NCBI GenBank assembly: GCA_034190875.2
Contig: CM067344.1
Span: forward strand, 18,205,612-18,269,611
Source: Urechis unicinctus
Taxonomy: Eukaryota; Annelida; Polychaeta; Xenopneusta; Urechidae
DNA length: 64,000 nt
Direction of reading: 5' to 3'
Part shown: piece by piece, positions 12,321 to 52,945 of the stretch
How positions within the stretch are numbered: position 1 is the stretch's first letter
How the letters are laid out: every line of letters starts with the position of its first letter
Position numbers and translations under genes: made by a program
The notes under the pieces: generated by a model
Told to the model about the DNA's origin: nothing
The model's input: only the letters and a program-made list of their open reading frames with translations
The model's database searches: none

Positions 12321-14284
12321 TAACACATTATTAATTTCTAATTACGTCGATGTTAGTTTCCATATGCTCAACATCACTATCTGAGACCATCAGGACGAAC
12401 AGGTTCTATGACGGAGGCATTTCCTCTTGACTTCAAGCCGCCCTGACGTCATCGCCACCTCTCTGAAGGTTATTGTGGAAGGAAACGCCTCCGTCCGTTG
12501 ACTCACTCCTGACAGCATTTGCCACTCACACCAGGCAGCATTTATTGGCAAATTCCACTCCGCTTAATAGTGCTGTTTGCTCCTGGTCGTGGGCGTCATG
12601 TTGTAATTGTATGCTGTCACCTGTTTTGTTACGAAGTCGTGGTAGGTGACACCATTACGACCAATCTCTCTCCTCGATTATGAATAGTTAGCGATCACTT
12701 GTTGTAACTTTTCGTTGATAGTTATCAGTACAACCCCATGCGTGATTTATATAATTAATGGTATCATAACACAGTGGAATGTATGCAACACAGTGTAAAC
12801 ACAGAGCCCATTGATGCACTGAGATAATGATATTGATGCATTGATGCATAATAAAGATAATAAAAATAATAGCGGTAATTTTCCGATATGAAATTTCCAA
12901 TTATGATTTGTCCAACGATTAAATATATTTTCCTCTCCTAGCACGTTGAAACTGACGATATTCGGTTACTTCATTTGGTCACTTTTTTAGAGCATGCTTT
13001 TAACCACCCAGTAGGCAATGTGAGAACTTCTCCTGTCATGACAAGCTGTGCCTTGGCACAACAGGGGTGTGGTGTGTGTGTGTGTGGGGGGTGTTGGGGG
13101 GGGGACATGATAGGAACACCAGGCAATATCATGTCACTATGACGCCTGCATCAGTTGCAGTGTATTCGTGTTTCAGCTGATGAATGGTCTGTACCCCTTA
13201 ACCTTGTCCTTTGAGTGCTTGTGGAGCATTCATTCACACGAGGTGTTGTGTATTGTCAAGCTAGACTGATGGCTGCCGATGTCTGGTATGCCGTGGCGCC
13301 TCAATATAGCCAATGCCTCACAGCTCGTACACTTAGACCGAATAAGTGCACGAAATCCATACTTATACCCCAGCTGAGTCCTGCTGTTTATTGACCATTG
13401 AACCAAAAAGAAGACAAAATATTACTGACGTTCCGGTTAACAGCAACTGCTTGACGTCTTACAGCCACGATGTCCCAAAGCTATTCTATTACTCCAAATT
13501 TCTGGTGTGTTTCTTAAACCCGGCTTTCATCTGCCTGAAAGGCTAGCGTTATTTGAGGCCAGAGCTGTATCCTCGCCACGTCTCACTTCGTTACGCAAAA
13601 CCTGGCCTGTAAGACTGATATGTTATTCATTATACGCCAGTAAATAATAAATTGTGCGCGTCGAACGCCTTCCAGTTGGGGCTTTAGCCAGATCCAATAG
13701 GCGAAGGTAGTACTGGGCGGAAAGCGCTGTAAGCTGCCAGTACGGTCCACACGAGTGAGTAACCATCTGACGCGGCTTTAGAGGTGCTCTTTGAGAGAGA
13801 GCAAGAATCGTGGCGAGAGGCTCTCATCTAACAGCTGGTAGCTGGCTCAGTAAGTCTCTCACATACCTGCTCTCATTCTCGGTTTATTTGTGGCTTTTTG
13901 TGTCGACGTGATCACGCGTGACGTGGTGCAGCGCGGCTCATTGGCAGGTTATCTCCATGAAATTGCATGACCGCCACTTAATAGGGAACCTTATAGCTGG
14001 TAGATATAGTGGCAATTTGGCCCAATCGACGGGCTGTACACTCAAGCAGTCTCATCATGTGCTAATGCTTGTCTGCCCTTGTGTTGCAGGCTTCTGTAAA
14101 CAAGGAAACCGGTGGAGTGTAGGTAGGCGTGTGGCGTACATCTCACCATGCTCACCTGTTAGCCATCGTACTAACTTCGGTGAACGCATACGCACCAAGT
14201 AAGGGATTCTCTCAGAAGCCGCCCTCTTCCCCATAACATTGATATAGACAGTTAAATACACAAACGGATTTATTAGAGAGCGGT
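12321..14284 (+). other. Upstream region of the 14,285 gene
   Basis: No separate gene is recognised. It includes a G/T-rich run at about 13070-13105. A plausible splice acceptor (pyrimidine-rich tract ending TTGCAG, near 14089) could define a 5' UTR exon leading to the ATG at 14285. The promoter was not located. Confidence 0.35.
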
Positions 14285-17200
14285 ATGGAAGTCGGAGGTC
14301 ATATCCCTGACGAGGTCGACGGCGCAGGAGACGTGACCTCAGAGGCCGCGGAGGGCTTGGAGGCATCCCACGGCGACGAAACTCTGGCCCCCAAGGCCGA
14401 CGCAGTGGGACTGTCGAGTACCAACGATACCATAGTTCGTGGAGTAGATGATGCCGCATATGGCGACATGGATTCCGAATCGTTCCCCCCTGAGCCGCCC
14501 CAGCAGCCGGATGCTGAGGACGGTGAGGTGGTTTCGTGCGATAATGGGTCACTTAGTGCTGGGGGTACTGCAAAAAGCTCGCTTTCTCCTGCCTCTGACT
14601 GGGAGATGCTCGACGAAGAGGGTCGGGTTTCGCCCACGGCTGAGGTCACAATGGCACGGACTGGTCTCGACAATGACTCGGATGATATTGAGCAATCTGG
14701 AAAAGCAAAAGAAAGGATGGAAGCCATTGCAGAGGCCATAGTAAAGGATGCTTTAGAAGGGGCGCTCATTCGATCTGCCACGCACGAACATGCAGTGATT
14801 CCACAGGAAGAAGATGGCGAGGAGGATGAGATCGTCGGCGATGAGAAAGTCGATGGGTTAGATGCCGCCATGACAGAAGTCAGTGATGAGATGCGGGATT
14901 CTCAGTATTCAGACGACATTCAACCTGAATACCCTGGTGCTTACGAGTATACAGCAGGTGATGAGATTGAGGGTTACACTGAACGCATCTCACCAGCTAA
15001 CGGCGATAGCAGTCCGTATGATGACGTGGGTGGAGTGGTGGAGCCCGATGAACTACGTATTGAGCTGGAGCATCAACCCGTTATATGTACCATGCCACCA
15101 CGCGACACTCACCAGGAAGCGGACACAGGAACTGTTCATGATACACAAGACATGTCTGCCTATGATACACAAGACATGTCTGCTTGTGATGCACAAGATG
15201 TTATAATGTCTGCCTATGATACACAAGACATGTCTGCTTGTGATGCACAAGACGTGTCTGCTTATAATGCAGAAGACTTGTCTGCTAATGAAACACAGGA
15301 CGTGTCTGCTTATGATGCCAAATACGTGTCTGCTTATGATACACAAGACGTGCCTGCATATGATACACAAGACGTGTCTGCTTATGATACACTAGACGTA
15401 TCTGCTTATGATGCACAAGACGTGTCTGCTTATGATACACAAGACGTGTCTGCTTATGATACACAAGATTTGTCTGCTTATGAAACACAAGAAGTGTCTG
15501 CTTATGATACACAAGACGTGCCCACTTATGATACACAGGACATGCCTGCTTGTGATATACAGGACGTGCCTGCACATGCCAAACAAGACGTGTCAGTTTT
15601 TGAAACACAGGACATATCTGCTTATGATGCACGATATGTCGTGCATGTTGATGATACAGACGGTGTGCATGTCGATGATACAGACGGTGTGCATGTTGAT
15701 GATACAGACGGTGTGCATGTTGATGATACAGACGGTGTGCATGTTGATGATACAGACGGTGTGCATGTTGATGATACAGACGGTGTGCATGTTGATGATA
15801 CAGACGGTGTGCATGTTGATGATACAGACGGTGTGCATGTTGATGATACAGACGGTGTGCATGCATGTGTGATGATACAGACGGTGCTTGCGATGATACA
15901 GACGCATGTCGATGACACAGACAGTGTGCATGTCGATGATACAGACGGTGTGCTTTGTCGATGATACAGACGGTGTGCATGCTGATGTCGATGATACAGA
16001 CGGTGTGCATGTCGATGATACAGACGGTGTGCTTGTTGATGATACAGACGGTGTGCATGTCGATGATACAGACGGTGTGCATGTTGATGATACAGACGGT
16101 GTGCATGTCGATAACACAGACAGTGTGCATGTCGATGATACAGACGGTGTGCTTGTCGATGATACAGACGGTGTGCATGTTGATGATACAGACGGCGCGC
16201 ATGTTGATGATACAGACGGTGTGCATATCGATGACACAGACGGTGTGCATGTCGATAACACAGACAGTGTGCATGTCGATGATACAGACGGTGTGCATGT
16301 CGATGACACAGACGGTGTGCATGTCGATAACACAGACAGTGTGCATGTCGATGATACAGACGGTGTGCTTGTTGATGATACAGACGGTGTGCATGTCGAT
16401 GATACAGACGGTGTGCATGTCGATGATACAGACGGTGTGCATGTCGATGATACAGACGGTGTGCATGTCGATGATACAGACGGCGCGCATGTTGATGATA
16501 CAGACGGCGTGCATGTTGATGATACAGATGGCACACGTCATGGTGCCACTCCAGACGTGAATACCAATTTCGCCACTCCCCGAAATATTACCGGGAAAAC
16601 AGACGAATCTGACGGTTCTTTTGAAAATGTTGACCCAGCACCTAGTTTATCTGAGAATATTAAACCTGAAGCAGTCCCCGAGTGCGCAACTTCTCCGCGC
16701 TATGACGACGGTGTACCGGTCACAGATCTGGACGAGGACATTAGTGACCCTGACCTTTCCTCACCAGAGGTCGCCCCTAGCTCGGCCCCAGGTGAATTAG
16801 ACATAGGAGAAGGCAGTGGCCCATTCGAGTCCGTGCTGTGCCCGCTGGCTCCTGAAGGTGAGGCACTTGCCTTCGACGTCTACTCGTCGGCAACGCGCCC
16901 TGTGAAGGCATCACATTGGGCGCAGCAAATGGAAGGTATGTAGTAACGTTTAATATTTGGTGTTACCCCTTACAGCTTATTCATGCTCAGGTATACATAA
17001 CTGTGTAACTGTTGGCAGATCATAGGTTTGTGCGCTGTAGAGTCTATGACGAGCGACAATCGTGTGCCATCTCAGACTTTCAAAAGCTCTGTGGGTTGGA
17101 TGAATCACTCAAAGCAATCACAAGGATGTTATTGTTGTTTTGTATTCCTGTGATGTCAAACGTGTATATGATCATAAGGGTCGTGCGACTGAGGTTGTAT

Positions 17201-26400: not shown

Positions 26401-26867
26401 ATAATGTCTCGTCCATAAACAAATATCAGATGATATACACAAGGGAGTTAGACATTAAATATCTTCAGTTTCACAATCACACAACAGCTATGTAATCTTG
26501 TGTTTATCTGTCCCCCAGAAAGCGAACGAACAGATAATACACGCACGACGGAGATCTTTTAATTGAATAAGTGGATAAGAGATTATTCTTTGTGCCCTGA
26601 ACAATTCATCTCTGTCACTGTTGTCCCATATATAGTCTCTGGCTGGTCTTATGATTTCCGCCTATCTCCAGAAAACATCTGTGAGCAGATCGAAGCTTTA
26701 TAGAGTAATTAGCGCGCTTTATATAGACCCAGAAATATATTCCGGCGTGAGCCGAGGTCAACCGGAAATGACGCAGATACGAAAACCCAGTTTCTGCAGC
26801 CCAAGTCAGCTTCCATAGAAACCATGCGTCAACCGTGAATTTGCATCTTGTTCAGTCTGGATCAGTC

Positions 26868-28467
26868 ATGCCAAAACGCTGCGTGACCGCGAATTGTTCG
26901 AACATTTCTTCGGAAAGCGTTCGATTATTCAGTTTTCCTTGGGAGGAGAAGTTGCGTAAGCAATGGATATCACAAGTGCGGCGAACGAGGGCAGATTGGC
27001 CGGGTCCGACAACCCTCTCGTTTTTGTGTAGCGAGCATTTTGGACCGGAATGTTTTGACCAGGCACTTGCAGTGAGAGAAGCTCTCGGATTTGGGTACAA
27101 ATGTTCCCGGAATATTCTTCCAGCTGCTATTCCTACCATATTCATGAGAGGTTGCACGGATTCGCCACCAGTCAGAAAGTCTAAGGCAGTGGAGAAAAGG
27201 GAGCACCAAAAGGTGAGCTGACATGTTGCAATTTATAAAAAAATGTATGGTTTACCCAGCTAGATAATGACGCCGCCCCCCACCTCCAACCAACGCAAGC
27301 AGTGAAAATAAGTGGTGTATAAATATATATTTAGAAATCCATTCCTTTTGAAAGCATCAACAGAATTAGTTTAACTAAGCTAATCTTCTAATAAAATAAT
27401 GCAACATAGTATCAAAAATCACTTAGATGTTTACTTTTTCCATAATTTTGTTCTATAAACAAGGACTTTGTTCTGATTATCAGGCTGTGGAGATACTGTT
27501 GTTTGACTCACCTCTCCAGGAAAAAGAAAATTTCCTTGAAACACAAAAAAAAATCTTACAGTTAAATTGCTCTTTATGTCCTTAGATACGAGGTGTGCCA
27601 TGGAATTGGAAAAAATTATCACCAACAAGAGATTGTGCAAGGACATCAAGAGACTATCAAGCAATGCCCAGACCTCCTACATAGAGGCTTTCCGCAGCCT
27701 TCTGAACCAGTTCGCTTCAAAAACCTATGCTTTCAGCTACCCTGGTATGCTTTAACGGTAAATCTTACAACTATCCCAGTCTGCTTAGCAGTTAGATTTT
27801 CCCCTTTGTTCAAATGTAGGATTGTTTTTTTAGTTCTATGGGACAATTTTTACCTGAGAGTGGATCCATAAACAAAAACAAAGTGGACTAAACCAGCTGT
27901 TTAATTTCATGAAGTATCTTTCCTCACGTCATTCATTCTAGTCATGGATGAAGTTAATTTATTGCTGAATCCAAATTATCACAAAACATCCGATGAATCA
28001 AACATGAAAAGCACAAACATATCCTATTTCAAACTGATAGAAAGGTTCATAAATGATTTCAGATCTATCATTGCAACTATGTATTTCAATGAAAATGCTG
28101 GACGACAACAAAGAATAACAGCCCAGGGTGAAGACTTGTACAGCCTCCACTACCCCAAACACAAGGGAGGAGGTCATACAGTGAGGAAAGTGGTGAATGA
28201 TCCAACTTATGGTAGGGATTGTTTCTAAATTTCACATTTATGTGGAAATTATAATCTGTACTCTCAAATGAACAACTAACACATATATACAATACAGGCT
28301 ATGTAGAAGATTTTTTGGCAACGACAGTCAGCATATGCAAGGCCAGTGATATAAATGATGAGGAGATGGAAGCACTGGAGATCCCATCCAATCTGAACTC
28401 CACCTTCGAGATCCCAGAAAAGCACCAAGCAGTCAATCAGTTCCGCTCACGTTTCTCTGAGTGCTAG
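26868..28467 (+). CDS. THAP-domain protein with transposase-like C-terminal domain; middle missing
   Basis: Exon 1 (ATG 26868 to 27212, donor AAG|GTGAGC) encodes a full THAP finger: MPKRCVTANC, W at ISQVRRTRADWPG, CSEHF, then AAIPTIF. THAP is a C2CH DNA-binding domain of host factors and of P-element and Kolobok transposases. Three later exons join in phase: 27586-27744 (RLCKDIKRLSSNAQTSYIEA, FASKTYAFSYPG), 27942-28211 (FNENAGRQQRITAQGEDLY, HYPKHKGGG) and 28298-28467 (stop 28465-28467). They match the conserved C-terminal region of large invertebrate protein families I know only as uncharacterised or transposase-like. Exon 1 ends in phase 0 but 27586 needs phase 1, and no central domain lies between, so a middle section has been lost or an exon is unseen. 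The gene converges with the minus-strand P2X7-like gene; their 3' ends overlap by about 35 bp. Kolobok-type origin is an inference. Confidence 0.65.
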
Positions 28468-29602
28468 TTTCATCTGAACATCCCACATAATTGTTTGTCT
28501 CCTCAGGAAGTGTGTTTCGGATAATTGATGTCACACAGGATAGTATAGGGATACGATTGTTCTTTCCAAGATAATGGTAGCACCATCGGATGAACTGCCT
28601 ATATCCAGTGTAACGCTTCCAGCTGTAACACACAACCATACACAAACCCTTATACATCTTTACAGTGCTGAATATATATTATATTTTAACCCAAACATAG
28701 ATTTGATGATTGAGTGACAAAATGTTATCCTGGTATAAACTGTATTGATAATTCAGTCTGAATTGAAAACGTCATTCATTTGAGTAAAAATGACCCAGTA
28801 GTTTGGGGAAGTTTTTTTAACATAAATTTATAATTTGGTGTTTGTTGTCTGTCAATACTTACTTGTTTCCCTTGTATGGACCATGATGCTGCTTGTAGGC
28901 ATAGTATGCTGTCTCCAGCACATCTTCATTAAGACATACAGCATTAAAATTTGGATGCTGTGTCACACATATAATTTCTGGTCAATTTTCTATTTCAACC
29001 ATCACTTGCTCCCGCTCCACACAGCAGATATTTTCCCTGACAGTTGGCATGGTTGAGCAGCCTCCACATTGGAACCTAAAACCAGGGTTTCAAAAACCTA
29101 TCAAATACATGCCAGACTCTGTCTAAGACTAAGATTAGGGTGGTCAATGAAAAGGGTTGTATAACATGTGTAAATGTTCCACCAAGCAGGTTTGATAGTT
29201 TTATCGGGATGACATAAATTTAAAAAAAAAAGTATTTTAAGCATGACAACACAAAAAATATTTTTCGCCATGTTCGTTGGCGATTAAAACCATATTGAAT
29301 ACCACCAAGAAAAACGAAAACGGTATCAAACGACAAAGGTATTCTTCATTTATAATATAAAATCAAAGATAAAGATAGTTTCGCGGAGTGATTACAATTC
29401 CAATGGGACTCACCAGTCAATGTTTTGAAGACGGTTGATGTCCAGATTATTGCTTCTCGGAACACGAATCAGTCCAGTCACTGTCAGATTCGCTGGCGCT
29501 GTTTTCGGACAGATATGGTTCGAATCTGTACGGCACAATACCAGCTACATCCTCTGGATTTGAATTCTCAAACATTTGAGGCTCTTCAACCCAAAATTCC
29601 AT
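28433..29602 (-). pseudogene. P2X7 C-terminal (ballast) domain-like protein, disrupted
   Basis: Three exons are visible. 29602-29414: acidic N-terminus, VAGIVPYRFEPYLSE, then INRLQNIDW before donor GTGAGT. 29075-28863: QCGGCSTMPTVRENICCVE and CVTQHPNFNAVCLNEDVLET, donor GTAAGT. 28622-28433: YTGYRQFIRWCYHYLGKNN, IPILSCVTSIIR. This is the Cys/His-rich module known as the cytoplasmic ballast of vertebrate P2X7 receptors and as stand-alone proteins in many invertebrates. In P2X7 it binds zinc and guanine nucleotide. There is no channel part here. Exon phases agree, but exon A needs a one-base frame change (stop after SCSEKQ), and exon B has an in-frame TGA after VMVEIEN. It is therefore probably a recently broken copy. 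A CRE-like TGACGTCA lies upstream near 29702. Confidence 0.72.
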
Positions 29603-29895
29603 CGCCAAATCGTCCAACTTAAATACATCGCTCTCCGAAACTTCAACATTCGCCGTTGTTTACGGTGAAAACTGCGGACTTGTCAGTGACGAGTTCTCTA
29701 AGTGACGTCACGGGGTGCTGTGCCGAAAATTTGGAAAATGGGGGCGGGTGCCAAAAAATCGACTTTATAATTCAATTTACGCTAGGTTCGGGTAACTTGT
29801 TCGGAAATTGAACCACAAAAACAGAGTAATTGCAACTTTATCTTTCATTCGGTTTCAAAAAAATCATCATGGAAATTTGGTGTCATAGGCACTTT
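29603..29895. promoter_or_regulatory. Probable 5' region of the P2X7-like gene and right edge of the two-gene block
   Basis: It contains TGACGTCA near 29702. It ends CATAGGCACT next to TTAA (29891-29894), after which the surrounding repeat family resumes (compare 48,511 onward). A TTAA at the edge would suit a Kolobok or piggyBac terminus. A matching inverted end was not found on the left side. Confidence 0.35.
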
Positions 29896-32800
29896 AAGTA
29901 TGGTGACTGTCAAAGACATCGACCTTGGCTCAAACGAATTTGATATTGTAACGACCATTTGTGAGCTATACCAAATGGCCATCATTAGTGGTTTGTAGTT
30001 GAATTGTCATCACGAGGGGGACTGGTCCATGATAGAGTTAGGCATTGCATCATCTACCATCTCTCATGTGAAAACGAGGACGGGAGTCTGAAATGAAGAC
30101 CGCTTTCTTGTGGCGTTGAAGAGAGGACTTGAACGTTTAGCTACGTAGGTGTCTATGTGTCAACACCACATCAGCTGCGCGAGCACTGACACTCGTCAAA
30201 CAAAGCATACCGATTATCTTCGCAGCTGTGTGTAGATGTGGTAAACGTTCTTTAAACGTCGTGACATGATGACATTCTAACCGACGCATTATCGGAATTC
30301 AAGGCCTAATATATGCTCCGTCGTATTGCGTTACAGGTCGAATGATATGGTGTTGCGTGGCATGTCAAAGCGTATGGAGCATTTGTTTTGGGCGTGCGGT
30401 ACACGACATTGACGGCGTTAAATAGAGAAATCTTATCTAATTCAGACGAACTTATTACCTTAGTCGCTCATAAGGTTCAGTTGATGAGTGATCACTCCTT
30501 ATGTCTAGGTGTAGGTTCAAGCCAACATTAATGGGATGAATGTAGATCCAACAGCACTTAACCGGTTGGTTGACGTCATAATTATACCATTCAGAAACAT
30601 CGGACCTTCATCATCTTATATAATATGATAATGCATTTTGGAATCCGATTTATGTACATTTCTTTGCCTGAAGTGTCTGTAACAGCTGGATGAAGCCATA
30701 TGGTTAAATAATTGATTAGCATCGATATTAGAATTGTCATCATGTTTTCATCCCTGGACATGGACAAATATAGATCCTCACTTATATAACATCAAAGAAT
30801 TCACCTAATATAAACCATGATGCAATCATGACAAACTCTTACCATTCTTGCAACGTCGAACACAGTAGTCGAGATGTTAGATCGGTTAGGATTTACTGCG
30901 AGATCATCACCAAGAGAAATTTATCAAATATGAAATGACGTTCATTATGATAATACGTGATCTAATCCCCTTATTACCCGAAAAAAGCGAACACTTTAAT
31001 TTGGATATCTAGTGATATGGCCGATCCTACGCATGACTTATAAGGCGTATCGTATATTTATAAAGTTTTGGAATCTGTAATATTCTCATTGCTCAATGAG
31101 ATAGTGACGTTTATGGTATGCAATGTACGGTGCAACACTATGGTTGCAAGTTACATTGATTTGATGTTAGATACAAATGAGCATCTGTTTTTACAACTGA
31201 TATTATAGTGGTAAGTTTGTCAAGGACCACGCCAGGCTAGTGATGTTAGACCACGCTATGATGAGTTGCTGCTTTGCTTCAACGTAAATGCTATTATATC
31301 ACAAAACAGCTGTGAATGACGCCACTTCATGGATTACAGAAATTGCAGCCTGCACATATCACGCACACGTTTATGCACATGCTAAGACATCCATTGACAC
31401 TCAGCAACCAGACGTGGATACATACACTAATACACACACTCACCGTCCAAACTGTACGTACCGAACCGTATGCATACTCACCATGAAGCACACTCAAGTG
31501 ATCATGGGCACCTGTATACGCACAAGCACATACATAACTACATTGATGCATATCCATACACTCATATGTACATTCACATGTATGAACCCACAAATGAATT
31601 CGTACACATTCGTTTACTTATAGGGCATGCCCAAAACAACAAATCGTGCTCTCGTACGCACCCAAATAAATGCATACACTCATTCACGCACCTGCACCCA
31701 TAACCGAATGCACACATGCACCATACACACGCTGCATTACAGAGATTATTCTTATCTCTAAGCATCGACTTTTATCGTTTTATGCTTTTTACGAACCACT
31801 TCCTAGGCCTTGCAGCCAAGAAATGCCAACCACAATGATAGAAAAAGAGCAATGAAATTTAAAAAGTGAGAACTATGATGAAGATGATGGTGATCAAGAT
31901 GAGGATGATGATGATGTTGATAATTACGACGAAGTTGATGATCATCGATAAAAATACATTCCAAGCTACCACTGATAGACCACACACAATGTATTTGTAT
32001 ACACATAGCGTATTTGGACTTGTCAACAAGAAGCTCTAGTAGATAACCGCGATTTGATTCGTAGGATGCAGGCCTACCCTTACTATAATGTTCAAAAAGA
32101 TATCCTCCAATTATTTGTCAATAGATAAACCAAACCAAGCAATCAGTATGTCATCCGCCTTACAGATCCACTCGCCCTGACAGCACTGATACCAGTGATA
32201 TCATTGATAGCTCTGCTCAGACTTTGAAAGCCCCATGAGTAACACCTACTGTTAATGCAATATGTCATTGGTTGCAAATGTTATAATCAATAAGTAGCGG
32301 TTTATGAGAAAATATGAGCCATGCAATGGCTTTCCAATGGCACGAATGAATATCTTATATGCCCTTACATCTTTCACAAACGGTCATGGAACTTGTATGT
32401 TCTAATGCTACCCATCAATTTTGGTGAAGAAGCAAAAGGTTGTTATTTGATGTCATCTCTGACAATATAACTAAAATAAAGTTGTTGGATTGCAAGAGAG
32501 CTGCACAACCAGCGACTTTTCTTGGTTGGGCATAATTGCACAATGTACTATAGAACATATGTGAACAACAACAAAGAGTATAACCCCATTTCAAAGACAA
32601 AATACACCAGCGAGGTAATGCTATGATGGATGCGATTGCAGCTTTTATCCGTAATCTCGGTCCATCTCACATTCAAACAATGTCAGCAATGGAACCGCAA
32701 CCATCAACAAACAGCTATGCTACTAATTTGCTATCATACAATAACTGCTTTATGAATAATATTTGCGAAACATTCACATTAATTATCACCATTCACCGTA

Positions 32801-35500
32801 CGATGGGCTTGCTTAATAATATCCTGAGGTTGCTCGAATAAAAGATTGAATTTTATAGCTTCGTTAACGGCCGTTGGTGATGCAATATCGTCTAATACCT
32901 CATTTAAATTGGCTTAATGTCAGGGCAAACGATCCGGGGATATGATCCAACGGATTAAATATTTCCATTATGATTCATACAGCTATAAGTATGTTTTTAT
33001 AGGTAGGTTGTGGTTGAAGAACCGAATTTCCACTTTCTATCTTGTGCTATCAGTAATGAGGAAGTTGTTAAAACGTCCGCTTAATTGTGGTGATAAACAG
33101 AAACTTGGTACCCGTGTGCACGTCAACTCAAAACATGCTGCGCGATCACAGGATGACGTAAGTGGCTGTACTCGTCGCAGCATCGTGGCATCCCTTGTGT
33201 AAACAATTGCTCGAATTATTGCATGATGTAGCTGTATGCATGGCAAAAATGTATGGGGTGCCCTTGTACTTTCCAAACGGTTGCGAGAAGCTTTAAGTCA
33301 TTAAAGAATGTGGAATGGAAAGGTATGTGATGACATATGACGCTCATTATATTCACCTCTCCCATTGAAGTGAGAATGTTGTTATTAATTTGACCATAAG
33401 CACATGACATACTCTTGCATATAACAACACACGGTTCCAGTTCATCATGTGGTATATGACAAGCCCGTCACCAGCCGCAGTGTGTATCGGGAAGGTAGTA
33501 TACTGTCGTCATGCTTTCAAAGTCACAAATAATTAGCCTGGCTCTGGTAACGGGAAACGTTAATCACATTAATCTTTATCAAATCGTCTTGAAATTGTTG
33601 TGATTACGCGTGGCACATTGTATTGCAAATGGTATGAAATGCCCATTGTCTGGATGCAAGCCATATAATATTTCGCATCTTATTGCGTTACAGATCTGAT
33701 CCTGCGATTATTGTGCTGTATAAAAATTGATGCTCATTTGAACGTCCGAAAAAGTAATTAGTGGCGATGATGTCATAATTCTAGACAATGCAAACATTAA
33801 GTCGCAATTAGGTCGAACGCATTCACTGTGATCAGCGGGTTGACTTTGGCAAAATGTAAACAGGGAAATGAAAGCTCCATTGTTATAAGTTACACAAAAA
33901 GAATATCATTTAAAATCGATTGGAAACTATAGTGCAAAACACTACGTGGTTCGTATTCCCTAAATTAATGAATTAGTTGCCTTTTTCCTACTGATCGCAT
34001 TATATTGAATATGCTATGACTATTTGATAGATATCATTTTCCGCTATGCAACTATCGTTCCTTCTCCGCCTAATGTTTATGTTGGAACATACCATAATAT
34101 TAACAGCGCACCCTGGAAAGGTGATAACTACATCTCGTCAAAATGAAGATATCCGATTGATATGCAAGGTAATTAGACATTACAGTTTGGGTTACATCAG
34201 GCGTTTAATGTTTTTGATTAAACGGACCGATATTATGTCAGCCAGCTTTGTTCAGTTTTGACAATCAGCCATATATTCGTGTGTAATGTACGAGTATACA
34301 TATTCCTCTGCAAATCATGGCACTAATACTACACTTGTGATGGTGACGTTTTTAATTCTCATGAATGGATAATAAAAGACGCTTTTGTCCCTGAGAAATT
34401 GATCTCTATCACCATTGTCCTATATTGAGTCCATTGCTGGTCTTATTATTTCGCAAACGTCCAGGAGCCATTAGAGAATAGATCTTAGCTTTATGGAGTC
34501 ATTAAGGTGATTAATGGAAAGGAAACCCGCACTGTATTATCCCAATTGTGCAGGTTGATGTCTTATCCAACCGTATCTAAGATGCAACTCATTCAGTTAC
34601 ACATGACTGCCGTTGTTCATAGGCTGCAGAATGAGAACAAAATGATGGAGGGATTGCAAAATGCACATGGAACAGGTCGGTGTTTTGTTGTAATTTTCAC
34701 TAGTTTACAAAGCCATAATCTTTTTAAGATCAAGAGAAGACTACGCCGGACCTATTTGGGAAATCAGCTAGGCGATGTGTTGACAGCTGTTTGTATACGA
34801 ATTTCCCTGTCCTCTGTTAATGTGGTTTAGTGACCTTGACTCTAACATTGTTAATACTTATTATAATTAATGCGGTTGTGTTCAAACAAGATGCCAGTTC
34901 AACGATCACCCTTGCAATAAATATTGATTATCTACGCCTCGCAATGATACTGTCCATGGTTATCATTAGGTTGATGCCATCACCATTCACATCAACACGT
35001 GTTACTCAGCAACCTCATGAATACTTGATCATTCGTACCATTAAAAACACGCTGCATAGTGAGTCTTAGTGGTTATCAAATATTAGAGTGCTGTAACCAA
35101 ATATGGTAAAAAGGAATACCCTCACCAAGTTATCAGCGGTGCTGGATGTGAAACCATGGTCCATTGTGCACATTCTCAATTAGTCTGAGACAGTGAGTCC
35201 TCTCGTTGGCACGATTGAAGTCATGCCACAGTTAGCTTTATACAGCAAATACCGCAATATTATCTACTATATGGTCACACTCATGTCCGGTATCGCTTGG
35301 TTGCCTGAGTAAAAAGGCTGTGTGATAAATGGACATGTGTACGAAATGGTACAACTTTATCTGATCGGTGATTTATATTTGAAAACTGCCTAAGCCAACG
35401 TTCTTGGAGTTAATGCAAACGGATTAGATAATCTGTATGCGATACATGTCCTATGAAAATGATCACAAGTAGTGTGTGGTGGACACACAATTATCGTCAG
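29896..35500 (+). repeat. ~5.5-kb repeat family, most complete copy
   Basis: This is the reference copy for the unit. The section after about 35,470 restarts with the same words found near 29,990 (ATGTGAA...GGACRGAAGTC; GTGTCAACAC; CGCGAGCACTGA; GTGTAGATGTGGTAA; GGCCTWAYATATGC), showing head-to-tail arrangement. Nothing coding was found in it. It includes a CA-rich island (31,340-31,740) and an impure GAT run (31,870-31,930). Confidence 0.65.
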
Positions 35501-36047
35501 AAATATATACGGGAATAGATCAATGTTTTTCCTTGGCGTTGTATTATCACTCATCTTTCATGTGAACCTAGGACAGAAGTCATAAGTTACGACCGCTTAC
35601 TCGTGACGACGCGCAGAGGTATTGGACCTTCAATTTGATAGCTGTCTGTGTGTCAACACAACATAACCCACGCGAGCACTGAATGACATATTCATAAGCT
35701 TTGTTTACTACTTGTCAAGATATTCTTTCTCGAAACTCTACCTTACATGAGCAAACGAAGCAAACCGTTTATCATTGCCAGAGTTATATCATGACGCAGC
35801 TATGTGTAGATGTGGTAACCATGTATAGGCCGTCCTTTAGCATCCTTGATATGATGACATTAGAACTGACGCATCATCAGAATTCAAGGCCTTACATATG
35901 CCCCATCGTATTGGGCTACAGATCTAATAATATGGCATTCCGTGTCGTGTGAAAACATAAGTTGCAAACATGTATGCTTCATCATAGATTATTGATATTG
36001 GGTTCCAAGAAAGAGAAATGTGCCCGTTCTTTATACAATACGGTTAA

Positions 36048-38950: not shown

Positions 38951-39099
38951 TGTTATGTTATGTCCAAATAACTATATTGAGAAACACACACACGAGGACG
39001 ACACCATGTAGACCGGAACAGAACTGTCTTTATTCTTAACCACCATCCAACACATGAAGTGGACGTTATGATTTTTAGTGAGGGCTTCATAATGCAACA
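38951..39099 (-). repeat. 3' LTR of the retrotransposon
   Basis: 149 bp beginning TGTTATGTTATGTCC and ending TAATGCAACA on the plus strand. It matches 42867-43015 at every base I compared. Confidence 0.95.
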
Positions 39100-39284
39100 T
39101 CCCCCTTCTTTTAAGAAATCATCAATGACAGACATTATGTTAGTTGCTTGTCTGCAGTCACAAACAAAAAGGTAGCAGTCTGCCTGTTACAATAAAATGA
39201 CATACAATTTAAGTCTAGTCCCAAGTTGACATTCATACAAAACAATACTATCTGGTTCTGCTACAATATGAATATGTATTTAGA

Positions 39285-41123
39285 TTAAATATCTTCTATG
39301 AGACGACGTGGAGGCATGACATTTCGCTTGGGACGTGGTGTAGGTATTGTAGTATTTCCACTTTTCTGTATCGCAGGTGAGGAGACTGTTGCGTTGTGAT
39401 TCACTTTACTAGTAGGTGTGGAGATGGGATCAGGTACGGGGCTATCCTGTGTTGGCTGTAGAGGGGGTGGGGCAACTATCGGTGCAGCTGGTGGTGACAG
39501 AGTTGGGCTTGTGTAAATGTCAGTTAGATATTGGTCATGGAGGATCTCTGGGATCAGCAGTTGACTTCCCTTCAGAATGAGACCATTTTCAATGCTTAGT
39601 TCGTCTCGGAAAGGCCAATAAGGATGAATGCTGTGGTGGACGTCTCTTTGGCGTCCGGGAAATCCTTGGATAATGTATTTTGACAGGCGATTGAGTGTCT
39701 CGTCATTTGTTATTGCTTCACGAAGCTCATCGAGTCGTCTGTTGCTGAATTGAACGAAGCATACCTTAATATTCAGTTCAATGTGCTCATCAGCACTAGA
39801 CTTTGGGAGTCGAGAAAGGCTGTCCGCTAGAATCATCTCTTTGCCAGGTCTGTATTTTATCTCGTAGTCATAGTGTTGCAACCTCAACAGCATACGCTGC
39901 AGACGGGCTGGGGCAGATGTGAGTGCTTTGGCTGAGATCATCTCCAGTGGACGGTGATCTGACTCGATGGTAAATGGTTTGCCGTACAAATATGTGTGAA
40001 AGCGTTCTGCTCCAAATACACATGCAAGTAGCTCTCTTTCTATGTTTGCGTACCGCTTTTCGGTGTCAGACAAACTTTTTGAGGCAAACGAGATTGGGTG
40101 ACCATCTTGAATGAGTGCGGCGCCGAGGGCTTCTTGACTCGCATCAACTTGCAATACAGCTGGCTTGGTTGGATCAAAGTATGAGAGCAATCCAGCTCTA
40201 CTAATGAGCTGTTTGAGTTGGCTGAAAACTGCTTGATGCTCTGGATGCCACTGGAATTCAGAGTCCTTCTGTAGTAGCTGTCTCAATGGTCCTGTAACGT
40301 TACTCAGCTTAGGGATATACGGAGCAAGGTATGTGACCATTCCAAGGAATGACTGGAGTTCTGAGACGTTTGCTGGGGGCTTCAGGTCGATGATAGCCTG
40401 CACTTTGCTTGGATCAGGCTTGACCCCTGACTCCCCGTAGATGTTGCCGAAGAAGCATACTTCGTCTTGGTTGATTTTACATTTCTCTGCATTGAAGACA
40501 AGACCACATTTGCGAGCACGTTCCATCAACTGATGGAGATTGCGGTTGTGATCAGCTTGGTCAACACCGAACACAGTGATGTCATCTGCAATGGATATGA
40601 CGCCAGGCAGTCCATCGAGTATCTGATCCATTGCCTTTTGGAAGACGTCTTGGCTAGTTTTCAAGCCGAATGGGAGCCTTTGGAAACAGAACCTTCCAAA
40701 TGGACTGTTGAATGTAGTGAGGTGTTGACTGGCATCATCTAACTGCACGCTCCAATAGCCGGACTTGGCATCCAGTTTGCTAAACACTTTGGCGCCCTTG
40801 AGTCTGTGTGTGACCTCTTCAAGTGTGGGGGTGCGGTGCTGACCCCTCTTTAGCGCCTTATTGATGTCTTTCGGATCCAAACAAATGCGGAGAGACCCGT
40901 TTGGTTTTTGAACATATGTTATGCTCGAGACCCAGTCTGTAGGTTCACTCACTGGGCGGATGACATCTAGGTCCAGCATTCTGTCAAGCTCAGAGCGGAT
41001 TTGAGATTGGAGCTGGATTGGAGCTCTTCTTGGCGCATGGATTACAGGACAAGCATCCTCCTTGAGGATTAGTGAATGCTCTCCTTTGAATTTACCCAAG
41101 CCTGTGAATCGGTCAGGGTACAT
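39285..41123 (-). CDS. pol: Retrotransposon Pol: reverse transcriptase and RNase H, no integrase
   Basis: The 612-residue frame contains RT motifs (KPNGSLRICLDPKDINKAL; FSKLDAKSGYW with the first catalytic Asp; LPFGLKTSQDVFQ; SIADDITVFG, an ADD box in place of YxDD, seen in some Gypsy lineages). RNase H follows (LQVDAS, NIERELLA, TIESDHRPLE), then the connecting PARLQRMLLRLQHYDYEIKY region. At about residue 535 the sequence passes straight into a Pro-rich tail ending RPKRNVMPPRRLIEDI, the usual C-terminus after integrase, so the zinc-binding and DDE integrase core has been cleanly deleted. The ATG at 41123 is not necessarily the real start, as the frame continues upstream. A stop and frame changes separate it from gag-protease. 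Confidence 0.92.
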   Translation of the reverse strand: MYPDRFTGLGKFKGEHSLILKEDACPVIHAPRRAPIQLQSQIRSELDRMLDLDVIRPVSEPTDWVSSITYVQKPNGSLRICLDPKDINKALKRGQHRTPTLEEVTHRLKGAKVFSKLDAKSGYWSVQLDDASQHLTTFNSPFGRFCFQRLPFGLKTSQDVFQKAMDQILDGLPGVISIADDITVFGVDQADHNRNLHQLMERARKCGLVFNAEKCKINQDEVCFFGNIYGESGVKPDPSKVQAIIDLKPPANVSELQSFLGMVTYLAPYIPKLSNVTGPLRQLLQKDSEFQWHPEHQAVFSQLKQLISRAGLLSYFDPTKPAVLQVDASQEALGAALIQDGHPISFASKSLSDTEKRYANIERELLACVFGAERFHTYLYGKPFTIESDHRPLEMISAKALTSAPARLQRMLLRLQHYDYEIKYRPGKEMILADSLSRLPKSSADEHIELNIKVCFVQFSNRRLDELREAITNDETLNRLSKYIIQGFPGRQRDVHHSIHPYWPFRDELSIENGLILKGSQLLIPEILHDQYLTDIYTSPTLSPPAAPIVAPPPLQPTQDSPVPDPISTPTSKVNHNATVSSPAIQKSGNTTIPTPRPKRNVMPPRRLIEDI

Positions 41124-41252
41124 GGACTTGACGTCACTCAGCTTTCCAAGGTTTGCAGTGTCAGTCTGGGAGAGATATGGTACAGTTCATGGTCACCAGA
41201 CTGAGAGCTTCGCAAGTTTCCAATCCAAAAATTACAGGACCTGGTGTGTCAG
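41124..41252 (-). other. Broken protease-RT linker of the retrotransposon
   Basis: The gag-protease frame stops at 41253. The following codons are homologous to the protease-RT linker in the second frame, and the pol frame then resumes in the third, so there are two single-base frame changes at about 41,262 and 41,166. One could be a programmed shift; the second is probably damage. Confidence 0.75.
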
Positions 41253-42500
41253 TTACATAAAATTTTGTTGCTTGCCACTGGCTGTCCGCATAACGACACG
41301 GGATGGTAAGTGTACCGTACTGACGAATCGGAGTGCATTGTATGCAGTGAGTTTGGCGTCACTTTTAACTAAGGTTGTTGGCAGTCCGTCTTCATTTACA
41401 TGCGATGGGTATATATTGCGGAACGTTCGCAGAGGCAGGATATTCACTTGAGCACCTGTATCCACTTTACCTCGTAGATTTGTCTTCTTGTTGGGGTATG
41501 CCTCAATGCACAAGATTGCAAATGCTTTGTCCCGGCTTACTGTTGAAATGGAGAGAGTGTCGAATGTGCACTGTTCAAACTGTGGGTCATCCTTATTCTC
41601 AACACAAACAGAGTGTACATCAGGCTTCTGCTTCTGTTTGTTATACTTTGAAGTACTGTACTTTATTGAGCCACTGCGATGTCCTTGCGTAGAACTGTGT
41701 GCAGCAGTACTGCGACAAACTTTTCCCCAATGACCAACTTTTAAGCATTTATTGCATTTCTGGTCACGAGTGGGACATTCCTCCCGACGGTGTCTAGTCC
41801 CACCACAAAAGTGGCATGTGTTCCTTGAGGTCGATTCGGCATGTGGAATCGGTCCTTTCCTTTGGTTGTTTCGCTTTTGATGGATGCTATCCACCTTCGT
41901 AGCCTGCCCAAACTGATTGAGTTGTTGTTGTGTGGCTTCGTATGTTCGAGCACAGTCAAGAACTTTGTCAAGTGTCAACTTCTCGGGATCGCGGTCTAGT
42001 ACCTTTTTACGAACGGGGTTGTGCACAGTGCCAATAATGATTTGGTCGATCAGCATGTCCTCGAGAGCAGCCTCGAATTTACACTTCCGTGCTTGCACCT
42101 TAAGACGAGTTGTAAAGGTGTCAATGGGCTCAGCTGACTGTTGACAAATGTCGCGAAATTGAAAACGGGCAAGTCTATAGTTAGCCTTGGGCTCAAAATA
42201 GTCTTGGAATGCCTGCCACACTGACTCTGGCGTTTTCTTCTGCTCTACTGTCAGATGAGACCAGTTGTCGTAGACTTCTAAAGCATTGGGTCCCAACCAC
42301 AGTAGGATGTAGTTAACAATTTCGTGACCTGTTTTGTTACTGTACGTAGGAGTCGACAACAACAGTTCACAATAACGCTTGAATGAGCGAAACTGATGAG
42401 GCAAATCGTCACTGTCCCAGTTGAATGAGGGCAACTTGATACCGGCTAGATCGTTTGAGTGCACGTACTGCACGCTTGCTGCTGGGTTTGATTCCGACAT
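41253..42500 (-). CDS. gag: Retrotransposon Gag and aspartic protease
   Basis: Start chosen at the first ATG (42500). A capsid-like helical region is followed by two zinc knuckles C-x2-C-x4-H-x4-C (CHFCGGTRHRREEC and CNKCLKVGHWGKVC) and a basic spacer. The aspartic protease active site is GKVDTGAQVNILP (DTG). Length is 415 residues, typical for a Gypsy Gag-PR. It ends in the protease C-terminal part, where the frame breaks. Confidence 0.92.
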   Translation of the reverse strand: MSESNPAASVQYVHSNDLAGIKLPSFNWDSDDLPHQFRSFKRYCELLLSTPTYSNKTGHEIVNYILLWLGPNALEVYDNWSHLTVEQKKTPESVWQAFQDYFEPKANYRLARFQFRDICQQSAEPIDTFTTRLKVQARKCKFEAALEDMLIDQIIIGTVHNPVRKKVLDRDPEKLTLDKVLDCARTYEATQQQLNQFGQATKVDSIHQKRNNQRKGPIPHAESTSRNTCHFCGGTRHRREECPTRDQKCNKCLKVGHWGKVCRSTAAHSSTQGHRSGSIKYSTSKYNKQKQKPDVHSVCVENKDDPQFEQCTFDTLSISTVSRDKAFAILCIEAYPNKKTNLRGKVDTGAQVNILPLRTFRNIYPSHVNEDGLPTTLVKSDAKLTAYNALRFVSTVHLPSRVVMRTASGKQQNFM

Positions 42501-42848
42501 GATTTGGCGGGCGATAAACTGCACACTGTCACTGACGCGATGCAATTATTTACCACAACGTCCAACACGATCACTAGACCTGATATTGTCACATGTAGAA
42601 GCTTACTTGCGATTTGCACTTTGCGCTCGTTTTGTTGCTCGACATTCCAACACCACAGTCACACAATCCGTCGCCGACCATGTGCGTTTGAGCGGGGTCG
42701 TTGAGCCTTGACCTGCTTGACTTGAGGAGGTGAATTGCTCGGTTCACTGAAATCCGTTGTCACTGACCTCAAGACGACAGTCGTCGTTTCCACTGCTGAC
42801 TAGCGGAAGATAAAAACACTGTTTTTAATCACTATGGGTCGTTTTAGA

Positions 42849-42866: not shown

Positions 42867-43015
42867 TGTTATGTTATGTCCAAATAACTATATTGAGAAA
42901 CACACACACGAGGACGACACCATGTAGACCGGAACAGAACTGTCTTTATTCTTAACCACCATCCAACACATGAAGTGGACGTTATGATTTTTAGTGAGGG
43001 CTTCATAATGCAACA
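42867..43015 (-). repeat. 5' LTR of the retrotransposon
   Basis: 149 bp, same as 38951-39099. It would carry the promoter for the minus-strand transcript. Confidence 0.95.
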
Positions 43016-43140
43016 GCGCCCACAATAGTTTTTACTATATTAACCACCATCCAACACCATGGAATGGAAGTTTTATTCATAATGCATAATGCAAACAGCG
43101 CCCACAATAGTTTATCTGCGGAATGGAAGTTTTATTCCTT
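43016..43140. repeat. Diverged LTR-like fragments beside the insertion
   Basis: GCGCCCACAATAGTTT occurs at 43016 and again at 43096, and GGAATGGAAGTTTTATTC also occurs twice. The part ATTAACCACCATCCAACAC at about 43038 is the same as an internal word of the adjacent LTR. The new element therefore inserted next to, or into, an older relative. Confidence 0.6.
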
Positions 43141-47605: not shown

Positions 47606-47639
47606 CATTTTATATCAATGGATGATAAATGACTATTTT

Positions 47640-50600
47640 GACCCGGAGCAATTGATCTCTGCCATCGTTGTCCTATATTGAGTGTATACCTGGTCTTATT
47701 ATTTCCGCCAACGTCCAGGAGCCATTGGAGAATAGATCCTAGCTTTATGGAGTCATTAACGTGATTAATAGAAGGGAAACCCGGACTAAATTATACTAAT
47801 GGTGCAGGTAAATGCCTTATCCGACCCTTTCTGAGATCCAACCAAATGAGACTGAAATCATTGTGGGATTATAAAACGCATATAGAAGAAGTCGGTGTTT
47901 TGTTGTAATCCTATTCCTGTTAAAGTCGCGAGAAGACTACGGTGGACCTATTTTGAAGATTAGCCGGGCAATGTGTTGACAGTTGCTTGTTTATGCATTT
48001 AACTGAATTGTCTTATGCCACAGTGGTTAAGTGACCTAGACTGTTAATTGTAGCAGTGATCATGTATGTCTCGTTAACATTAGATGACATTTCAACAATC
48101 ATTCCCGAAATGAAGACTGATAAGCCATTACTAGCAATAATACTGTTCATTATGATCATCATCATGTCGCTGCCACCATTATTCTCATCAACACGTGTTG
48201 CTAATCAACCTCACAAATACACTAGTGGCACCATCAAGCAACTGTGGTGCCAGAACGACGTTACATAAAAAGTCTTAGCGATGGCAAAGTATTAGATTGC
48301 TATAATCAAATATGGTAAAAAGGAATATCGTCACAAAGTCATCAGCGGTGCTGGATGTGAAACCATGGTACAATGTGCCCATTCTCAATTAGTCTGAGAC
48401 AATGAGTCCTCACGCTGGCACGACTGCAGTCGTGCTTCAGCAAATACCCTGGTAATATGAACTATATGAGTAAAAGACCGCGATAACACGTTAACTGAAT
48501 GGTTCAATATAATCTGATCGGTGATTTACATTTAATAATCGTCCAAGCCAACGTTATGAGTTAATGAAACGGATTTGATCATTTAAGACGACATATGCGC
48601 TATGAAAATGATCATTAGTAGAGTGTGGTTGAAGCACACGTATCATCATGATTTGTAGCATGCTGCAGCTGTGTGTCGATGTGGTTACCATGTATGAGCA
48701 TATGCCCCGTTATATTGCGCTAGAGACCTAATGATATGGTACTGTGTGTAGTGTAAGAGTATGCGGTGCAAGAGTATGCGGTATCATCAAATATAATGAT
48801 ATTTAACAACGCAACAACTGCTTAAGTATCGTTTAACATAGCATTTTGCTATTCAATTCATATCCACTTCTTTGCTTGAATGGCTTGGAAACCGGTTCAT
48901 GGAGCTGTAAAGATAAGTCAGGATTCATGCAGTTATCAACGGCACTAACAAATCGATCCACATCGATTTCAGAGTCGTCACTATTTTTCTTCACTGGACG
49001 TAGACAAATATCGATCCTCACCTCTAAACCGTATATCATAGCAGAGTACTCACGAAACATAAATAATGATGTAATTGTTGCAACATCGCATATAGTAGTC
49101 GAGATGTTAGATCTGTTAGAATATACAGCGAGATCATCAGCAAGAGCAATTGGTCAAGTATGGAATGACGTTCACAATAATCATACGTGATCTAAATCAC
49201 TCCAAATAAGGACGAATCAATCATAATTCCTTCGTTATCTAGTGACATCGGCTATTTCGCTGCATTATTAATTGGGCGTTTTGTACACTTATTGAGCATT
49301 TTAAACAGCTGTCTCAATATGCAAGGTTCGCATGATCTTAAAACAACAGTGCTACCGGTAAATATGGTACGTTCGATGCAGCTATAAGATTGCAAGTTAC
49401 TTTCATTTATTAGCCATCCAATTGTTGTTAAGAGTATATATTGTTATAGCTGATATAGTATACCTTTTATCAGCGGTCAGTTTGTCAATAACCATGTGAG
49501 ACGAATGACCTTTGACGACGCTATGATCAGTTGTTGCGTTGATCCCAGTCAAAATACTATCATATTACGCAAACAACTGAGAATGACGTCACTTAAATGA
49601 TTATTAATATGACTGCCTTAAGTTTATATACTAGTCAAATGCATATCGAATTCGTACATGAGTATACTGTACGGTTAGTGATATGAGACACGTTTCAACA
49701 AGCTTGTGCTGCTTACTTTATTATTTACGTCATGAAGATCATTTTCTCGCGAAAAGCATAAATAATTAATATTTTGCTTTTATGGGTAATGGGTTAAGCT
49801 AACCTTGCACGTTAGTTCATTATTCTAGTCTTGCAAAATGAATGCAGTTAAGACGCTATATGTATTACAATATAAATTTCAGGCTAACGATCAAAAACAC
49901 AAATGCCTAAATAACTCAACTGCATTGTTTCAAGAGACTCCACTTTGTTACTGTTCCACTGTGACAAATCATTGCATTACTGCACGATTGCGCTGTCATG
50001 AAGCATCTATAGCGTTTTTTGACATGTCTTAAAGACGTTTAAGTAGCTAACCCTGATACGACGGTTACATAGTTGGCAGACCCTTTTCACCTTAACGGTC
50101 CTGTAGCTGGTAAATTGACTTGTTCTGATGCTACTCATCAGGGTGTCACTCTGAAAAATAACAAAGATGGTAACCTTTGTAGGATCGGAGATGAAATGCA
50201 TGACCATTAAGGAGATATGACTGATAAAATGAAATACAGGGCTATTAATGGGGTAGGACTGATGGAATGAAATACAGGGCCATTTATGGGATAAGACCGA
50301 TGAAATGAAATACAAGGCCATTAATGGGATAAGACTGAAGCAATGAAATACAGGGCCATTAATGGGGTAGGACTGATGAAATGAAATACATGGCCATTAA
50401 TGGGGTAGGACCGGTGAAATGAAATACAGGGCCATTAATGGGGTAGGACTAATGAAATGAAATACAGGGCCATTAATGGGATAAGACTGAATAAATGAAA
50501 TACAGGGCCATTAATGGGGTATGACTGATGGAATGAAATACAGGGCCATTAATGGGGTAGGACTGATGGAATGAAATACAGGGCTATTAATGGGGTAGGA

Positions 50601-51452: not shown

Positions 51453-52945
51453 CATCTGGCAACAACATTCCCACAACAATCAGGCGCAATTCCTGTCATA
51501 CAAAAGCTGATTCATCCAAAATATAAATTAACCATTTGCATTAATTAACACCATTGTCTTATATCTCTTTGCTCCCTGAATGACAGCCTGATTTCAGTAG
51601 CTCCGATTTCTGGTGTTTATGATGCAATATTGTCTAATGCCTCATTTAGATTTGTTCCAACAGATGTATATTTTCAATAACGATATATGGACCCATAGAA
51701 ATGTTCAAATTGGTATTTTGTAGTCGCACAACAGAATTTCCATTTTCTACCTTGTGTACGACATTGTATTATCAACCTATTCTCGTCGGAAACAAATCAG
51801 CAATGTGTACACTTGTGTAACAATGCGCCCTTTAACTTTCTAAGAGATGTCCAGAAGAGTTTGCCCCTTAGTGAGAGCAGTTGAATTGGAGAGGCCATTT
51901 AGCAACAACTATATATCCGAATGCATAGTGCTCATCTTATTCATCGTTCTCATAGGAGGTCAATTTGACCGTAAAGCGTCTGATATTCTCTTGCGTATAT
52001 GACTTCAGTTAACAAGGTGGCATATGACAATCCCACCTCTCGGCTCAATGTGATTCTGGAATGGCTAAATTCTCTGACTGCTGTCGTCTACCAGCGTCCG
52101 TCCGGAAAGTCTCAAATAATTAGCCCCATATTCCCATCCAAGAGGGCAATGTTGGCGGACATATAGTGCAATGCACTCGTAACCTCGCTATGAGCATGGC
52201 CTCACCATCCCACCGCATAGCATAAGACCACAGTGGCTGTTAATTATTGAATCTATGACCCCATTCATGACAATCAACGCGTCATAGTGAACGAATATGA
52301 CCTCTCATCAAATGTAACACAAACTCTACCCAGTGGTTCCGCCTGCCATTAAAAGGCTGTCATTTCGTTATGACAATCCTACTTTGTTCAACAATGCTCA
52401 TATTTAACATTATTCTTCATTACCGTTTGATTCAGTTCTTTATAACTCATCGAACTACTGATCAATTGAATGTTTATTTGTGATGTGAATCGGTCAAGAT
52501 GTTCTAAGCTTCAAGTTCACGGGTCAACATCTAAGATGAGGCGTATTCGATGAATCTAGACACTAACCGAACGGTGCCCTACATAATCAAGACAATGGGA
52601 GGGGGTGCGAGCGGATTTGGTTGTCCAAGCAGTAGGCCCGACAGAAGCGCTTTGGCGGGCTGTGGTAAGCAAGCGTGTTGTTTTACAAAACATTATGATT
52701 TCTGAACGTAATGATACCGGGATGAGACAGCGGTGACGGGGCCCGGTGACGGGGGTCTGCTGTTGCACGTTTTTTCGAATAAAGCTTTTACTTGATTGTT
52801 TAATGTGGTGTTGTGAAGTTGCCTTATCTTTGCGTCGAGGATAAATTATCACGTGAAGCAAGGCACGATGACGGTACAGTTGACAGCGTGTTACCAAAAT
52901 TGACGACCGGGTTGTCTATCGAGAGATAAAGCCAATGGTAACATT
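51453..52945. repeat. 1,493-bp tandem duplication, first copy
   Basis: It starts CATCTGGCAACAACATTCCC and ends AAAGCCAATGGTAACATT; the same sequence restarts at once at 52946. The segment belongs to the ~5.5-kb repeat family (it follows 32,750-33,700) and carries no gene. Confidence 0.95.

Follow-up and report, generated by a model that had tools for sequence, protein, structure and literature searches.

The DNA analysed here, referred to as the window, is a stretch of 64,000 nt from the genome of Urechis unicinctus in which two genes on opposite strands face each other (Table 1). The gene on the plus strand was found to consist of one THAP exon and three C-terminal exons, as an earlier note on this DNA had described. 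The THAP domain, a DNA-binding domain and a feature of the Kolobok superfamily, scored above the curated Pfam cut-off; a Pfam search of the core, zinc-finger and C-terminal transposase pieces gave none above the cut-offs.

The note had described a minus-strand gene of three exons resembling the C-terminal part of P2X7 (the ballast). This gene, here called KolX, was recovered by Pfam P2RX7_C (PF20478, E 1.6e-7, above the curated cut-off) when its exons were joined, with X at the in-frame stop. Among solved structures, at E values up to 1, the KolX of the window matched no P2X7, the best match being a glutamate receptor (E 0.14); the KolX of another family in the same genome (L043) matched residues 476-593 of solved P2X7 (E 3.7e-14). 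The plus-strand stop ends at 28467 and the minus-strand stop at 28433, an overlap of 35 bp (28433-28467) that reproduces the tail-to-tail layout and the overlap of about 35 bp reported before.

Table 1. Features of the element and its flanks in the window
Feature	Position	Strand	Evidence
Left host-repeat flank	26557..26723		BLAST to 34350-34504 and 47619-47770; 26724-26744 lies between flank and element
Copy of a Kolobok-type DNA transposon, non-autonomous, without about 150 bp of the left end	26745..29893	+	Genome-wide DNA matches, end comparison
Transposase exon 1, THAP domain, open in the window copy	26868..27212	+	Pfam PF05485, E 3.7e-13
Intron with internal-deletion junction at 27528-27531, core missing there	27213..27585	+	Alignment to longer element L070
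Transposase C-terminal exon 2, in-frame TAA at 27753-27755	27586..27757	+	89% protein identity over 55 residues to L070 exon; end from splice sites
Transposase C-terminal exon 3 (FNEN), open	28063..28211	+	Ends from splice sites
Transposase C-terminal exon 4 with stop codon	28298..28467	+	Sequence reading
KolX exon 3, overlaps transposase 3' end	28433..28622	-	Sequence reading
KolX exon 2, cysteine-rich half of ballast, in-frame TGA at 28982-28984	28863..29075	-	Pfam PF20478 over joined exons; genome search also gives one TGA (C3:18234473)
KolX exon 1, frame broken in the window copy	29414..29602	-	Sequence reading of ends
Right terminal inverted repeat GGTGTCATAGGCACT	29879..29893	+	End comparison among 30 copies
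TTAA target-site duplication, right side only (left lost)	29894..29897		Right end then TTAA in 21/21 copies

The earlier note had taken the block 26712..29895 for a mobile element and had proposed a search for other copies. The genome (1.19 Gb, 926 contigs) was searched with window positions 26700-29910, which gave 1680 candidates, 40 of which were scored. Seven of the ten matches ranking after the window itself ran from query positions 46-48 to 3198-3203 with 91-95% identity, so that the block is multicopy. The proposed start did not hold: family homology begins at 26745 rather than 26712 because the window copy has lost about 150 bp of its left end. On the right side the span had stopped inside the TTAA.

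The block does interrupt an otherwise collinear repeat, as had been suggested: window positions 26557-26711 match 34350-34504, and on the right the flank 29893-30381 could be aligned with 35372-35966. Comparison of the window flanks with this sister copy indicates that about 0.8-0.9 kb of host repeat is therefore also missing. Taken by itself, the initial 143-bp stretch of the right flank scored 58.2 against a best score of 55.2 in 50 shuffles, a weak margin. The other sister repeat carries TTTAA at 48531, where the right end in the window inserted, in a weaker alignment made without a control. The simplest reading would be that the element inserted and that a single deletion spanning its left end came later.

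The ends of 30 loci, the window's own included, were compared, allowing up to 3 mismatches for the right end. The element has inverted ends of 15 bp, AGTGCCTATGACACC...GGTGTCATAGGCACT. The right end was located in 21 of the 30 loci and was directly followed by TTAA in every case; the left end was located in 23, about 150 bp beyond the start of the window copy, and was preceded by TTAA in 19 of them. Both ends were present in 18 copies, with TTAA on both sides in 15 and different surroundings each time; one or both ends were absent in the other 12. Inverted ends and target duplications, which the earlier note had proposed looking for, are thus features of this family. Where the ends were found, the left one began with AG in 21/23 copies and the right one ended with CT in 20/21, giving 5'-RR and YY-3' termini. 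Exact matches to TTAAAGTGCCTATGACACC, the complement of the right repeat with TTAA before it, numbered 151 forward and 174 reverse in the genome, and the reversed control gave 0.

Altered left target sites were observed in three copies, TTAG in L022 and L024 and TAAC in L025. L022 and L024 lie 4.25 kb apart at C4:3696951-3703966, in the same orientation and with the same TTAG, apparently as a local duplication. At C16:50192820-50231185 eleven KolX exon matches occur on one strand, each with one TAA and with 7 of the 10 spacings at 3.29-3.39 kb, apparently a tandem array of the element.

A longer relative was identified at C1:49195152-49199821, a 4.66-kb element having the same exact ends. A 2.4-kb stretch within it (L070) contains, besides the end of the THAP exon, a core and a zinc finger, as well as a C-terminal exon with 89% identity to that of the window. 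The core carries the motifs GDGRADSPGH, TDRH and DIWH, the catalytic motifs being assigned by eye. The zinc finger, between the second D and the last E, was recognised by similarity and position in L070 and in L008, and is deleted from the window copy.

When the window element was aligned to L070, positions 1-115, 117-225 and then 1890-2401 of the latter were covered, with four bases shared at the junction; window positions 27230-27414 had no counterpart in L070. The gap from 225 to 1890 means that about 1.67 kb, core included, is missing from the window copy. This L070 interval, corresponding to the DDD/E core with the C/DxxH signature, was absent from the window copy as from 30/30 copies. 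The junction 225|1890 was found in 14/30 copies and the junction 139-140|1878 in 4/30 (L026, L030, L032, L035), the rest having further losses or slightly shifted ends; the internal deletion apparently happened at least twice. The window element was classed as a non-autonomous derivative because it has no core and longer elements sharing its ends carry a similar one.

In L070, phase 0 is found at the end of the THAP exon and phase 1 at the end of the exon preceding the C-terminal one. Since exon 2 therefore starts in phase 1, the deleted form cannot join its THAP exon to the C-terminal exons in frame.

Exact ends facing inward less than 8 kb apart formed 18 pairs among 100 of the 325 ends, and 7 of these 18 were 4.55-4.77 kb long; all seven hold THAP and/or KolX matches. 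KolX in the elements of about 4.65 kb is known from genome search matches with an open exon, the part read as sequence being the left one; at L070's own element there was no match among the 150 KolX matches listed. The best 24 core matches showed 95-100% identity over 164 residues with no stops, and eleven KolX exons scored alike, with 97% identity and no stops. The long form therefore looks young and homogeneous. The partner that serves the short form in trans is likely to be found in the elements of about 4.65 kb, which have ends identical to its own and carry THAP, a core and, facing them, an open KolX exon.

The short form has decayed. The C-terminal stop of the window recurs in 17 of the 30 copies and its KolX TGA in 19, all within a group of 23 that includes the window; elsewhere in this group the site is changed, deleted or missing. 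Seven copies lack both stops (L015, L018, L026, L028, L030, L032, L035). Because the stops are common to many copies, we infer that both genes were already damaged when much of the sampled family multiplied. Divergence at codon positions 1, 2 and 3, compared with KolX exon 1 left out, was alike in the group of 23 (0.058-0.089) and no lower than in introns (0.056), so that purifying selection on the genes of the deleted form was not seen within this group. Most exons in the seven-copy group were alike across positions, with some third positions higher (KolX exon 3: 0.051, 0.065, 0.101). Fixed differences between the two groups, as raw counts, were 11, 8 and 15 at codon positions 1, 2 and 3 (395, 395 and 391 sites) and 15 at 620 intron sites. 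The window copy is dead and non-autonomous, which the earlier note had missed, and exons among the copies are no better conserved than introns.

The same note had proposed asking whether ballast-domain genes lie within about 5 kb of THAP/FNEN-type genes more often than expected by chance. Between 143 core loci, merged from the best 150 core matches, and the best 150 KolX matches, 47 core-KolX pairs were found within 6 kb, with 0.22 expected; every one was tail to tail, with a spacing of 1.56-2.53 kb. Smaller lists (85 core and 115 KolX matches) gave 44 pairs, again all convergent. THAP-KolX pairs within 6 kb numbered 11 (0.23 expected, best 150 x 150 loci), all convergent at a spacing of 3.34-3.46 kb. 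The expectations were calculated from coordinates and assume uniform, independent placement. The 47 pairs represent mostly one family and its close relatives and are not independent events, because both queries come from the family of the window and the best matches only were used. Independent support for the convergent layout comes from its presence in other families, namely L040, L043 and L008; the last, together with L069, represents a further family with THAP, core, zinc finger, C-terminal exons and a facing KolX.

At 12 of the best 30 ballast loci, two of which (L040 and L043) supplied probes, the opposite strand carried Kolobok transposase pieces no more than 1.5 kb downstream. No transposase piece was found within 1.5 kb at 17 of the 30; even so, the contrary pattern named beforehand, each gene mostly alone at a fixed place, without multicopy boundaries or shared termini, was not seen. 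The proposal that the ballast module is the accessory gene of a THAP transposon is thus supported by copies, inverted ends, TTAA and convergent pairing.

Two loci showed other arrangements. At L045, the remaining one of the best 30 ballast loci, a ballast exon of another family is preceded on its own strand by C-terminal transposase exons belonging to the window's family (88% identity); one element may be nested in the other. At C9:77154610-77154828 (minus strand), a 911-aa open frame contains a KolX exon of 95% identity and without stop, and a transposase core lies on the opposite strand at a distance of 2.2 kb; the frame is either a fusion or due to chance.

The Kol0 lineage of Kolobok was described by Kojima and Bao (2022) as encoding a DDE transposase and the accessory protein KolX; KolX has the P2X7 ballast fold, and P2X7 is proposed to have arisen by fusion of a P2X4-like gene with KolX (PMC9587614). 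The central idea of the earlier note was therefore right and already in print, the origin of the P2X7 ballast included. In the open-licence PMC literature, preprints excluded, KolX was found by name in that paper only. Rump et al. (2020) traced the ballast through animals and named no transposon, "THAP" and "transpos-" being absent from its text (PMC7016195).

The element resembles Kol0 (the Kolobok-1_XT group) in its DDE transposase, its TTAA duplications and its 5'-RR and YY-3' ends (PMC9587614); a KolX with the ballast fold is indicated here by the P2RX7_C match in the window and by open KolX exons near the cores of the longer elements. The window form differs in having no core and in that both genes are broken. 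The strand of KolX in Kol0 is not stated in the available part of that paper; here all counted pairs were convergent. A Repbase name may already exist for the family, and the placement of the family in Kol0 is based on KolX and on features of the element rather than on a phylogeny of the core.

KolobokP has a similar layout, in that an accessory protein is encoded downstream of the transposase on the opposite strand, but it carries long direct repeats at its termini (about 450 or 660 bp) and a His-Me finger nuclease, whereas the second gene here is KolX (PMC9587614). No direct repeats between the first and last 800 bp were found in any of 13 complete copies tested, 12 of which had an inverted match at the termini. 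The THAP, DDE and H2CH transposase, AG ends and TTAA are shared with Xenopus Kolobok and T2-MITEs, and Xenopus Kolobok transposases have been proposed to activate non-autonomous elements (PMC6004289). T2-MITEs are short, whereas the deleted form described here keeps remnants of both genes. P2X7 ballast and Nanor share the fold, as judged from the KolX match of L043 to solved P2X7; they differ in being host genes (PMC7016195), and the window's own KolX had no P2X7 match among solved structures.

In view of its ends and target sites, its copies and gene order, the deletion junction, the stops held in common and the lack of clear codon bias, the block is very probably what decay and an internal deletion have left of a Kolobok cut-and-paste transposon belonging to the KolX-bearing (Kol0) type; a longer partner would mobilise this short form. 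We infer the movement in trans and the biochemical roles as follows. The working form would be about 4.65 kb long, with THAP, DDE core, zinc finger and C-terminal part of the transposase facing KolX tail to tail on the other strand, the whole bounded by 15-bp inverted repeats and flanked by TTAA. By means of its THAP domain the transposase would bind these ends; it would then cut the element and insert it at TTAA, and KolX, judged by its recurrence, would act as a zinc-binding accessory factor. Internal deletion of about 1.67 kb, core included, would leave a short form of about 3.0-3.3 kb, which could spread on the transposase of the long element since this would recognise the same ends.

Fortuitous proximity of two host genes, or of fragments of two repeats, would also place a THAP gene beside a ballast gene, and could accord with the 17 top ballast loci lacking a nearby transposase and with Pfam-based lists (best 150 of 3056 and of 2592 candidates), in which a single THAP/P2RX7_C pair lay within 10 kb, with 0.38 expected. 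It has next to no probability, given that the two genes travel together between common ends at many different sites and that all 47 core-KolX pairs are convergent. Equally implausible is a piggyBac transposon with a KolX-like protein: piggyBac also targets TTAA, and a few of its families carry such a protein (PMC9587614), but the window exon encodes a THAP domain, the longer element has a Kolobok-like core and zinc finger (motifs named by eye), and the AG...CT ends fit the 5'-RR...YY-3' rule that sets Kolobok apart from piggyBac (PMC9587614).

The KP protein of P elements is a repressor of transposition, and by analogy the core-less THAP and C-terminal protein might have been kept for such a role. 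Exons are commonly open in single copies (THAP 13/28, exon 3 25/30, exon 4 24/30), and the raw counts of fixed differences between groups show a slight third-position excess. A repressor is nevertheless very unlikely: exon 2 is open in just 5/26 copies, a direct splice from the THAP exon to exon 2 would be out of frame, and the three codon positions of the larger group are alike and no less divergent than introns. For the transposon reading preferred above, the open exon near young cores and the recurrence in several families argue that KolX matters to the element. A stronger version would have the transposase of this lineage depend on KolX, which would then be no passenger, and would give the constant tail-to-tail 3' overlap a function of its own, for instance as an antisense brake on transposition; it seems to us unlikely. 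On this version the P2X7 ballast would be a re-used transposition regulator.

The data from one whole genome, with a chance expectation, support the published view that the P2X7 ballast is found in animals as the second gene of Kolobok transposons, and ballast genes appear to be spread by copies no longer carrying a working transposase. The long, near-identical copies provide material for assaying the role of KolX. Nothing is opened here beyond what the 2022 paper had proposed (PMC9587614).

Other repeats were observed in the genome and in the window. THAP exons at L001-L003 lie in frames of 531 aa (L001, L003) and 287 aa (L002), the C-terminal part of which is transposase-like but different; they represent another type of THAP transposon. 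Window positions 39285-42545 (minus strand) contain Gag-like (zinc knuckle) and reverse-transcriptase-like frames, enclosed by 155-bp direct repeats (38951-39105 and 42867-43021) that are 99% identical; the whole looks like a recent LTR retrotransposon, named by eye. Long open frames encoding acidic repeats run over 24-bp tandem arrays of about 20 and about 37 copies at 14243-16943, and a direct duplication of about 1.49 kb, with stretches 100% identical, occupies 51453-54438.
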